This document shows, piece by piece, positions 15,056 through 20,632 of a stretch of DNA of 41,689 bases; position 1 is the first letter of the stretch; every line of letters starts with the position of its first letter. Position numbers and translations under genes: made by a program. The stretch covers positions 1 to 41,689 of IMG/VR virus record IMGVR_UViG_3300025466_000083, one strand, 5' to 3'. The notes under the pieces are model-generated. The model was not told where the DNA came from and ran no database searches. It saw only the letters and a list, made by a program, of their open reading frames with translations. The DNA comes from a virus.

Positions 15056-15265
15056 TTAATATTCTCCATGCATTTTGATTAATTTAATTTCTTCAGCAGT
15101 CGGTCTATAGCCCCTGCATTTTTCTATAAACAACCCTACTTCATCTGGAATCATCTTTCCAACATATGGAACTCCTTTACACCATATGTCCAATAACTCC
15201 ACTTGTCCTCTTGTTAGTCCTTTCTCATCTCCTACCCTATCTAACCAATCCCTATCTATCTCCAT
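15056..15265 (-). CDS. Small unknown early protein after structured leader
   Basis: 69 aa, helical (WLDRVGDEKGLTRGQVELLD). AGGGG lies 6 nt before ATG at 15265. Its 5' side is a 325-nt noncoding stretch with several hairpins, so its mRNA probably has a long structured leader. Function unknown. Confidence 0.7.
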   Translation of the reverse strand: MEIDRDWLDRVGDEKGLTRGQVELLDIWCKGVPYVGKMIPDEVGLFIEKCRGYRPTAEEIKLIKMHGEY

Positions 15266-15486
15266 GTATTACCCCTTTGCTTTTTGGTGGACGAACCTAG
15301 CCTTTCCTAGACTAGATTCGTCTTTCCTTCCATTCTGCTTTTCGGAGCCACAGAACCCGACAGTCGTTCGATGCAAGGGCACTATCTTCGCCACCCCTTG
15401 ATGTATCTCAGCATCTACCCCACAGTACATCTATCCCTCTACCCCTGCGGTTATGTCCCACAAGCAGAGCGGTTGAGTCGTAGAAA
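15266..15486 (-). other. Long structured 5' leader, no coding
   Basis: No convincing gene on either strand. Leftward RNA from this stretch can form a 10-pair hairpin (plus-strand arms 15291-15300 and 15312-15321) about 25 nt before the 15265 start codon, and a GATGTA/TACATC stem (arms 15400-15405 and 15426-15431). The same two hexamers occur in the terminator-like element just upstream, so alternative pairings are possible. No known riboswitch recognised. Confidence 0.5.
15291..15321 (-). promoter_or_regulatory. 5'-leader hairpin before 69-aa gene
   Basis: ACGAACCTAG and CTAGATTCGT (plus strand) pair over 10 positions with one wobble in the leftward RNA (ACGAATCTAG with CTAGGTTCGT). It ends about 25 nt before the ATG at 15265, with the ribosome binding site left free between. 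Confidence 0.5.
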
Positions 15487-15576
15487 TAAAAAAAGCCACT
15501 TAAGGATGTAACTTGGTCGTGTCCCCAGAATGGGGCAAGATACATCTTTAAATGGCTTCAACTTATTGCACACGAC
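15487..15576 (-). ncRNA. Pseudoknotted hairpin with U7: structured RNA or regulated terminator
   Basis: Leftward RNA: the 17-nt arm AGCCATTTAAAGATGTA pairs with TACATCCTTAAGTGGCT (one U-G, one mismatch). Inside, CTTG pairs with CAAG and CCCC with GGGG around an ATTCT loop, leaving a 7-nt bulge ACACGAC (plus 15516-15522). The exact complement, GTCGTGT, lies 5' of the hairpin (plus 15570-15576), so a 7-pair pseudoknot is predicted. Seven U follow the hairpin. It sits 14 nt after the stop of the gene ending at 15591, as a terminator would. Confidence 0.65.
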
Positions 15577-15590
15577 TGCAACAGTTTGGA

Positions 15591-15980
15591 TTATATCGAT
15601 TTAAGCGCCTGTCTCAACTCCATCATTCGTTTTTTTACGTCTTCAGGCATTGGTGCAGCATTTTTGGTGTCGTTATCAAGCTTTTCGAGAATAGGGTCTC
15701 TGAAGTTGATATTGATCGTTACAGGAGTAGGAATCTCTGCTCCATCCCATCTTTCCTGGTTGATGTAGACCAAAGGAGCGGGAATAAAATCCCCGTTGCT
15801 TTTTTTCCACATATCCGTTGTTTTAACCCAAGTCAGATGGGCATGGATTTGTTTCCATTGCTTATCGAGTGCCTTTTTCTTCCATCTTTCTAAGCACTTT
15901 GACTTGCTAGCCTTCCGTGGAGAACTGGGCCAGAGTGCCCAAAACAACTCAAAACAATTCTTTTCAACGTTTTCGCTCAT
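15591..15980 (-). CDS. Replication-initiator-like protein (phage O-type C-terminal region)
   Basis: 129 aa from ATG at 15980 (AAGG 7 nt upstream); a longer open frame upstream is out of context with the neighbouring gene. CFELFWALWPSSPRKASKSK, then KCLERWKKKALDKQW and DFIPAPLVYINQERWDGAE, match the F-x-x-FW-x-x-P-x-K ... FIP-P-YIN-x-x-RW pattern at the C-terminus of many phage replication initiator/helicase-loader proteins. The N-terminal DNA-binding domain usual in those is absent. Location downstream of a Cro-like gene fits a lambdoid replication module. Confidence 0.6.
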   Translation of the reverse strand: MSENVEKNCFELFWALWPSSPRKASKSKCLERWKKKALDKQWKQIHAHLTWVKTTDMWKKSNGDFIPAPLVYINQERWDGAEIPTPVTININFRDPILEKLDNDTKNAAPMPEDVKKRMMELRQALKSI

Positions 15981-16158
15981 AAGTAGCCTTTGCATGTTGC
16001 CAATATTCAATAACTGCTCTTCTTCTTTCTTTTTGTTCTTCAGTCTTCCACCACAAATACGCCTCGAATGGGTTCTTAAATGAATCCCATTCTTCTTGCC
16101 AGAGTTTTTCCTGTTGGTGCAAGTGCGTACATATATGCCTATATTCAATTTCCGTCAT
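15964..16158 (-). CDS. Small charged/aromatic unknown protein
   Basis: 64 aa from ATG at 16158, MTEIEYRHICTHLHQQEKLW..., rich in Trp, Glu and Arg (EAYLWWKTEEQKERRRAVIE). Weak ribosome binding site, but it overlaps both neighbours, consistent with translational coupling. No family recognised. Confidence 0.55.
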   Translation of the reverse strand: MTEIEYRHICTHLHQQEKLWQEEWDSFKNPFEAYLWWKTEEQKERRRAVIEYWQHAKATYERKR

Positions 16159-16258
16159 TAGTAGTAACCCAGTAAACCAGAAATAGCGCCAATACGAACG
16201 CCACAAACCCACTAACGAACATTAAGCACGTTAGATAGTAGATAAAAATATCAAACAT
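16145..16258 (-). CDS. 37-aa single-span membrane microprotein
   Basis: Reads MFDIFIYYLTCLMFVSGFVA then FVLALFLVYWVTTNDGN. It is almost entirely one long hydrophobic helix with a short polar end. It starts 8 bases inside the cro-like gene's end and finishes 14 bases inside the next gene, exactly filling what would otherwise be an unexplained gap. The ribosome binding site is weak (AAGG adjoining ATG), so coupling from the upstream gene is assumed. Function unknown. Confidence 0.5.
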   Translation of the reverse strand: MFDIFIYYLTCLMFVSGFVAFVLALFLVYWVTTNDGN

Positions 16259-16433
16259 CCTTGTGAATAGGTGGGGGTGCAAACCAATCAGGGCGCAATT
16301 CCCTCAATTGGTACAGGCGCAACTCAGGAATCTTTCCTGTCTTTGCCCATTTATAGACTGCTGGGGGCTTTATCTTCAGCATTTGGCTGATTTGATAAAG
16401 GGTGGCTTTGGTTTTTAAGGTTTCAATGTTCAT
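16251..16433 (-). CDS. cro: Cro-like helix-turn-helix regulator, apparently leaderless
   Basis: 60 aa. ATLYQISQMLKIKPPAVYKW at residues 10-29 is a helix-turn-helix of the Cro (P22-type) kind, followed by AKTGKIPELRLYQLRELRPDW. It is the first leftward gene of the early region and would repress its own and the divergent promoter. ATG at 16433 is the only usable start before an in-frame stop, and it lies only 6 nt past a near-consensus -10 box, so transcription should begin at or near the A of ATG, without a ribosome binding site. No CI partner gene is seen. Confidence 0.75.
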   Translation of the reverse strand: MNIETLKTKATLYQISQMLKIKPPAVYKWAKTGKIPELRLYQLRELRPDWFAPPPIHKDV

Positions 16434-19999: not shown

Positions 20000-20274
20000 T
20001 GCACTCTAAAAACAAAAAAGCCATGACTTCCCTTGAACGGGAGCATGTCGGTAGGATTAAGGAAATGGCCTGTATTGTCTGCGAGCAATCAGGCCCATCC
20101 GAAGCGCATGAAATCGACCAGGGCGAATGGTTTACTAGTCTACCCTTATGCGTTGATTGCCATCGGGGGGCTATAAATGGCATCCACGGGCAGAAACGCA
20201 TGTGGAATATACATAAACTTGATGAACTAAAAGCGTTAAACTTAACACTTCAGAAAATATTTGAGGAGCGATAA
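19999..20274 (+). CDS. Ref-like RecA-dependent nuclease (HNH-type)
   Basis: 91 aa from ATG 19999. CIVCEQSGPSEAHEIDQGEW, then LPLCVDCHRGAINGIHGQKR, gives CxxC...H-E-I...CxxCH with downstream NGIHG. This is the pattern of the short Ref/RecA-dependent-nuclease family of zinc-HNH proteins. Ref from phage P1 cuts DNA at RecA displacement loops. Placement beside the Sak3-type annealing and SSB-like genes supports a recombination role. NinG-like HNH proteins are the alternative. Confidence 0.7.
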   Translation: MHSKNKKAMTSLEREHVGRIKEMACIVCEQSGPSEAHEIDQGEWFTSLPLCVDCHRGAINGIHGQKRMWNIHKLDELKALNLTLQKIFEER

Positions 20275-20275
20275 T

Positions 20276-20632
20276 ATGGACCCAGTTGGCGAATTCCTGT
20301 TAACGATGCTTCATGGCGTTACAAACGTCCATTTATTGCATTGGCAAGAGAAAAACGGCTTTAAACATCGTGTTTTGGGTAAATTCTACGAACTATTGTC
20401 AGACCAAGTTGACGAACTTGCAGAAGCAATAATGGGGGGTTATAACACCGTCCCGCAGTTTCCTGTAGACTATTTCCATCCAGCTGCGACTGGCGAAGAA
20501 GAAGTGATGGCATTGAAGCAATATGTCGAGGAAAACAGAAACAAATTGCCCCAAGATTCTGCCATTCAGACATTGGTCGATGGAATTCAAACCCAAATTG
20601 ACAGAACTTTGTACTTGATCAGAAAGGATTAA
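20276..20632 (+). CDS. Ferritin-like (DUF5856-type) phage protein
   Basis: 118 aa from ATG 20276 (GAGGAG 7 nt upstream). LLTMLHGVTNVHLLHWQEKN, then HRVLGKFYELLSDQVDELAE and a final QTLVDGIQTQIDRTLYLI, give three or four amphipathic helices with H-W-x-x...H and D-E-L-x-E positions, as in Dps/ferritin-like four-helix bundles and the DUF5856 phage family. Metal binding is possible but unproven. Role in infection unknown. Confidence 0.65.
   Translation: MDPVGEFLLTMLHGVTNVHLLHWQEKNGFKHRVLGKFYELLSDQVDELAEAIMGGYNTVPQFPVDYFHPAATGEEEVMALKQYVEENRNKLPQDSAIQTLVDGIQTQIDRTLYLIRKD

Follow-up and report, generated by a model that had tools for sequence, protein, structure and literature searches.

This locus raises the question of what a strongly folded RNA that ends in a run of U residues does beside the replication gene of a phage. 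The window (the whole stretch of DNA analysed, a virus record of 41,689 bases) carries terminase, portal and major head genes. A non-exhaustive scan of its ORFs revealed no integrase, and no Q-type protein was identified among the ORFs scanned. The element occupies positions 15488-15583 of the minus strand, on which all features described below also lie unless noted otherwise. Upstream of it is a replication-initiation-like gene (15591-16148); behind it come a leader, a first ORF of 69 amino acids without a family match (15056-15265) and a RusA-like resolvase gene (14729-14307). A small HTH protein with weak Cro/HTH_17 similarity is encoded upstream of the replication gene (16251-16433), and a plus-strand gene at 20261-20632 encodes a protein matching phrog_858, annotated as a starvation-inducible transcriptional regulator (E 1.2e-16).

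The element and its predicted structure

The main hairpin, P2, is built from a 12-bp stem (GAAGCCATTTAA/TTAAGTGGCTTT), an A.C mismatch, a 6-bp stem (GATGTA/TACATC), a further mismatch, a 4-bp stem (CTTG/CAAG) and a CCCC/GGGG cap. Folding places the 5' arm of the lower stem, P2a, at 15548-15559, adjoining the U-tract in the closed hairpin, in agreement with covariation of the lower stem. The 5' arm of the upper stem, P2b (GATGTA followed by CTTG), maps to 15536-15546, the cap hairpin, P3, to 15523-15535 (its columns are 96% paired in the alignment described below), and the complete P2 3' arm (CAAG, TACATC, TTAAGTGGCTTT) to 15492-15515. Seven U residues (T7 in the DNA) end the terminator-like hairpin at 15488-15494. 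The 7-nucleotide bulge ACACGAC, designated anti-L1 (15516-15522), directly adjoins the P2 3' arm, and its exact complement GTCGTGT, designated L1 (15570-15576), forms the loop of a 5' hairpin, SL1 (TTGC-AGTCGTGT-GCAA, 15566-15581), predicted from sequence and folding. The hairpin, its inner stems, the bulge, the U7 tract and the complement had all been named in a preliminary description of the locus, and each is present on the minus strand as claimed there. That description placed the heptamer just 5' of the hairpin; as a refinement, it is not a loose strand but the loop of SL1.

Folding energies were far below those of shuffled sequences (z-scores of -7.0 for 15489-15590 and -8.7 for 15470-15600), and no shuffle folded as well. 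A perfect complement to a given 7-nucleotide bulge is expected within a 40-nucleotide flank with a chance of about 0.002, and 63 other elements show the complementarity again in other letters; the earlier judgement that the match is unlikely to be accidental is therefore borne out. Additional copies of GTCGTGT (36585) and of ACACGAC (1028 and 41256) in the rest of the window were judged to be chance occurrences. With a stable hairpin immediately followed by a U-rich tract, the window element has the makings of an intrinsic terminator, as predicted from its sequence.

Covariation of the loop and bulge among relatives

The leader behind the putative terminator starts with Betaproteobacteria-1 RNA (Rfam RF02932; 15355-15471, 108 bits against a gathering score of 49.4), whose match begins about 17 nucleotides past the U-tract. 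Scanning IMG/VR for the core of this RNA yielded 53 loci, about half of which show the same module of an upstream promoter, a 5' hairpin, a U-tract hairpin and an internal complement to the 5' loop. By a crude U-run test the module was present in 28 and absent from 25 of the 53 testable loci; a few entries on the first list of module-bearing loci (for example L002, L039 and L051) probably represent something else. Two close relatives, L056 and L057, came in through homologues of the replication gene, a search pattern for the window-type stem added L065 and L066, and a pattern for a second, common stem form (group 2) retrieved 72 contigs. After removal of duplicates, 64 distinct elements from environmental phage contigs were parsed.

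All 64 elements keep the complementarity between L1 and anti-L1, using 24 different helix sequences. The GTCGTGT/ACACGAC pair of the window is replaced by GTAGAGT/ACTCTAC in L065, GTGCAAA/TTTGCAC in L057, GTGGTTA/TAACCAC in L056, GTAGGAA/TTCCTAC in L005, GTCGAAA/TTTCGAC in L030, GTGAGAG/CTCTCAC in L079 and GTGGTGG/CCACCAC in L029. A Watson-Crick run of at least 6 was found in cis in 20 of 21 sequence classes, compared with about 9.5% of mismatched pairs and about 7% of shuffled flanks. In an alignment of 36 sequences (A1), 98.4% of the L1:anti-L1 cells were paired and six of the seven pairs had changed on both sides; none of 500 shuffles matched these values, and the signal collapsed when the partner was shifted by 1-3 columns. 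The P2 stem, including its lower part, and the CCCC/GGGG cap also covary. The aligned elements are related, so that cells do not count as independent events; nevertheless, given so many different helices and the outcome of the sliding control, the pairing is hardly in doubt. We conclude that L1:anti-L1 is almost certainly a selected RNA pairing. The compensatory changes suggested earlier as a check on the heptamer helix are thus found in related phage contigs, an outcome that favours the pairing.

It is also conceivable that a phage regulator binds L1 and anti-L1 as a pair of operators at the DNA level, with the RNA pairing a by-product. The two are inverted copies by definition, and G.U pairs are few in the helix, as such sites would have it; such pairs are, however, present in L033, L046 and L080. 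The architecture of the elements also argues against operators. In 55/64 elements L1 is predicted to fall within a hairpin loop, compared with 35% when flanks were shuffled, and the SL1 stems differ in sequence yet still pair. Anti-L1 stays fixed against the P2 3' arm (a gap of 0 nucleotides in 54/64 elements) while its distance to L1 varies. We therefore regard an operator pair as very improbable.

Other features of the module are shared or vary by group. Across elements L1 measures 6-9 and anti-L1 7-8 nucleotides, and P2 is divided by a mismatch into a lower part beside the U-tract and an upper part. A run of at least five T residues follows in 72/72 group-2 elements, a feature that the search pattern did not demand. 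A third group (L010, L015, L029, L033, L046 and L048) carries an extra hairpin at the front, and in several of its members another long-range helix, up to 14 bp in length, connects the joining strand with the interior; this helix is strong in L010, L015 and L048 (p<=0.005) and weaker in the others. When 20 phage records were searched with model R1, 19 contained one element each, and the twentieth holds a third-group element beyond the reach of the model; the weaker opposite-strand match seen in each record arises because the hairpin is nearly palindromic.

A possible third copy of the pairing sequence, TACGACTC, lies shortly past the U-tract (15475-15482) and is partly complementary to SL1/L1. 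Across elements such a copy of anti-L1 is partial, with support from folding, a class permutation test (p=0.0012) and, to a moderate degree, duplex tests. It is strong in L057, L079 and L086 and weak or absent in L065, L030 and L003, so a universal third copy was rejected: it occurs in many elements, but not in all.

No Rfam family covered the module when the window, its 1-kb region (at a relaxed threshold), L056/L057 and 20 related loci were examined with cmscan; the only matches in this set were RF02932, beside the element, and tRNAs. The best sub-threshold matches over the hairpin were to animal miRNA models (E ~0.1-0.8), and C4 antisense RNA had no Rfam match in the window. The earlier remark that no named RNA family has this form accordingly stands. 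Neither the module nor the type A leader matched the named phages and plasmids searched, in which 24-base matches were judged to be chance. An L010 query against named phages and plasmids returned methylase genes only; the matches of L009 and the window to Acidovorax phage AP1 and one unclassified phage were confined to RF02932. Apart from three weak matches of 60-66 nucleotides, taken as chance hairpins, model R1 did not find the module in 401 Burkholderiaceae genomes; nor was it found in 10 genomes with the RF02932 core, where a blank result carries little weight. The pairing of a loop into a terminator hairpin was not found in the open-access papers searched. The element is thus real, conserved and, to our knowledge, previously undescribed.

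Variation of the loop raises the question of whether the RNA acts in immunity or copy control, like P4 CI RNA and P1 C4 RNA, which are short phage RNAs with loops complementary to their own leader that control termination or expression. Through L1 or anti-L1, a short terminated RNA of this kind would bind the transcript being made by another phage of like specificity, forcing or preventing its termination. Within the window group the loop/bulge pair differs between close relatives against constant surroundings, with a divergence per site of 0.47 in L1, compared with 0.13 in lower P2 and 0.08 in the 5' strand of SL1. The presence of one module per phage record searched would also suit this reading, as would the copy past the U-tract in part of the set, which resembles the multi-site logic of P4. 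A hypervariable loop as proof of immunity holds for the window group, however, and fails for group 2, where the SL1 stem and the joining strand vary more than L1, which is therefore not specially diversified there. Moreover, L1 and anti-L1 would for the most part be occupied by one another in cis, and a lysogenic role is unsupported, given only three weak matches in the 401 Burkholderiaceae genomes and no integrase among the ORFs scanned. The loop complementarity is shared with P4 CI and P1 C4, but theirs lies outside a terminator hairpin. We consider an immunity RNA quite unlikely.

A candidate promoter-proximal conditional terminator

A sigma-70-like promoter is predicted just upstream of the element, with a -35 hexamer TTGAGA (15612-15617) and a -10 hexamer TATAAT (15590-15595) that overlaps the replication gene's stop codon, an arrangement also seen in L056 and L057. 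The site (TTGAGA-16-TATAAT, 15617-15590) matches the consensus at 11/12 positions with a 16-nucleotide spacer and places the estimated transcription start at 15583, 7 nucleotides (+/-2) past the -10 box. A match as good is expected 1.2 times in shuffles of 1 kb and is not significant alone; its weight derives from the conservation of promoter-like sites in relatives, in which the best-scoring hexamers reached at least 9 in 80% of the 64 elements, compared with 4% of shuffles. L1 mostly starts 13-16 nucleotides past the -10 box in these relatives, and this near-fixed distance indicates that SL1 stands at the very start of the RNA and that the element is promoter-proximal. The preliminary description had assigned the element to the end of a leftward replication operon. 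It does adjoin the 3' end of the replication gene, but a simple operon end it is not, having a promoter of its own and leaders and genes behind it. The promoter-like site suggests that the element also starts the next unit, which consists of the RF02932 RNA, the small gene (15265-15056) and the RusA gene.

We propose that the element is a promoter-proximal conditional terminator (attenuator) in which L1:anti-L1 sets the choice between stop and read-through, a reading to which we assign a probability of about one half. The layout inferred from sequence, with a promoter just upstream, a terminator between and genes behind, is consistent with it. RF02932 and the other leaders also lie too near the U-tract for an evident promoter of their own, and so would need read-through. 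Of the three options raised previously (a regulated terminator, a stable 3'-end RNA and an RNA that modifies the polymerase), the first appears to be the best supported, the parts that stand being a conserved structured RNA, its U-tract and a heptamer pairing maintained by compensatory changes.

In the proposed mechanism the parts would be made in the order SL1, P2 5' arm, cap, anti-L1, P2 3' arm and U-tract. Because anti-L1 adjoins the P2 3' arm, it is always made before it, and this fixed order would give L1:anti-L1 the first chance to form. SL1 would fold first as the polymerase advances, and the emerging anti-L1 could then pair with L1. With L1 held by anti-L1 and a short joining strand, closure of lower P2, the part that would have to close against the U-tract for termination, would be hindered, and the polymerase would continue into the leader and genes. 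If L1:anti-L1 failed to form or were displaced, P2 would close fully and an RNA of about 95-130 nucleotides would be released. The balance might be tipped by the speed of transcription, by a protein of the phage or host, or by another RNA. After read-through, the partial copy past the U-tract would offer the 5' loop its next partner. L1:anti-L1 might instead act on termination with the opposite sign.

Geometry and folding models bear on this choice. The strand joining L1 to P2 measures 8 nucleotides in the window type. It can span no more than about 57 A, whereas the full P2 rises by about 67 A, so that L1:anti-L1 and a fully closed P2 are probably alternatives. A single window-type molecule could probably not hold both the pseudoknot and the fully closed hairpin of at least 17 positions. 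The conflict is less sharp in group 2, whose longer joining strand (median 12 nucleotides) could accommodate both should SL1 open. When folding was modelled without the P2 3' arm, L1:anti-L1 had a median probability of 0.62 and dominated in 56% of elements, though not in the window type, and it vanished in nested models with complete P2. In the window type SL1 stays closed in the nested model, and the program used was unable to score a kissing contact. The whole element folds with about -40 to -60 kcal/mol, compared with about -10 kcal/mol for the 7-bp helix. P2 being far more stable, and the helix being lost on its completion, any effect of L1:anti-L1 would have to be kinetic.

Much of the same evidence might be expected from a stable small RNA gene, that is, a free-standing phage sRNA acting in trans, in which L1:anti-L1 locks the 5' end to P2 against decay and the leaders are reached by incidental read-through. 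Its own promoter, a compact covarying fold, the conserved U-tract, a 5' hairpin with which the RNA begins and a single copy per phage record searched would all be in keeping with such a gene. It should also, however, show a conserved unpaired seed for its targets, and none is apparent: in group 2 conservation is lowest in the joining strand and the loops. The conserved leaders follow directly, with no space for an evident second promoter, and in the window geometry the lock and full P2 conflict. We therefore consider a stable sRNA unlikely.

Phage promoter-proximal terminators are usually opened by a protein (N or Q) or by a polymerase-binding RNA (put). In the Q-dependent late operon of lambda, the late promoter pR' is followed at once by the intrinsic terminator tR' with genes behind it, and the default product is a short RNA. 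This locus and the IsrK locus are the closest to the element in working; a promoter, an immediate terminator and genes behind are common to the element and pR'-tR', but we know of no conserved 5' hairpin loop pairing into tR'. Indeed, none of the systems compared here is known to us to pair a loop into a terminator hairpin. In the preQ1 riboswitch a co-transcriptional pseudoknot decides whether a terminator forms, as it does in the fluoride riboswitch. The latter case is documented in PMC11077080. The element differs from both in that one pseudoknot strand lies inside the terminator hairpin and a conserved core resembling a ligand pocket is not seen. IsrK of the Salmonella prophage Gifsy-1 combines a promoter, a small RNA, a leaky terminator and a read-through mRNA with the same 5' end, and regulates translation of orf45/anrP; the excerpts of PMC4825925 used here describe these features and also the Q of a Q-dependent late operon. 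The locus offers a precedent for the predicted layout of our element, with a phage promoter, a small RNA, a leaky terminator and an operon. A loop-terminator pairing of this form is not described for IsrK in those excerpts (PMC4825925), and no sequence relation is claimed.

Start of a phage transcript and a compact two-helix fold also recall putL of phage HK022 (PMC9378689), and the conserved leaders need read-through; the 5' element might thus bind the polymerase and make it terminator-resistant, with its own U-tract as the first test. The put RNA comprises about 70 nucleotides in two stem-loops and is bound to the zinc-binding domain of the polymerase beta' subunit (PMC9378689). Both are structured RNAs near the start of a phage transcript, but they differ in length and architecture: the element is not an RNA of about 70 nucleotides with two stem-loops, and put RNAs are not described with a terminator hairpin and U-tract (PMC9378689). 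Nor was there an Rfam match over the element, or evidence of antitermination at distant sites. A put-like activity is, in our estimate, distinctly unlikely.

Leaders behind the U-tract

The sequences past the U-tract fall into several classes that could not be aligned with each other by BLAST, comprising RF02932, larger classes unmatched in Rfam, and singletons, and the same module therefore precedes different leaders. In many relatives RF02932 follows shortly after the module, and each is also found without the other. By a crude rule, the median leader length up to the first ORF is 270 nucleotides, and genes near the element in relatives encode a TOPRIM primase, a helicase, terminase and a 2OG-Fe(II) oxygenase. 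Folding-energy z-scores of the downstream leaders were near 0 on both strands; unusual folding energy was accordingly rejected, and leader structure has no support from energy alone. Conserved leader classes without an Rfam match take the place of RF02932 in L069, L075, L126, L106, L086 and L057.

More tentatively, the conditional terminator might form part of an interchangeable phage control cassette, in which a promoter and a loop-into-terminator switch stand before unrelated leaders, a third site past the U-tract takes the 5' loop onward as the polymerase passes, and the outcome depends on timing and not on a ligand; we regard this extended form as possible rather than probable. The observation that gives the proposal its interest is a conserved, covarying RNA contact reaching inside the terminator, present in dozens of environmental phages ahead of several leaders. 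If the switch model is true, it would provide protein-independent timing of phage transcription, tie RF02932 to a defined transcription unit and offer a compact test case for how the order of co-transcriptional folding sets termination.

RF02932 is an orphan Rfam family, of which no mention by name or accession was found in the open-access papers searched. In the window the rest of the leader, up to the first small gene (15266-15354), contains a conserved downstream motif, GTCCACC. The RNA seems to be longer than the Rfam model: a YCCACC motif complementary to GGUGG in the core occurs 93-107 nucleotides past the core start in 23/46 distinct RF02932 loci, compared with 2.5 expected in shuffles. 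At L026, L034 and L052, RF02932 is accompanied by hairpins without the U-tract module in front, and L026 and L052 have a promoter-like site. RF02932 is also present, unannotated and without the module, in Acidovorax phage AP1 (L055, 6001-6178), between the primase gene and the next gene; as a cultured phage, AP1 is a handy system for studying this RNA.
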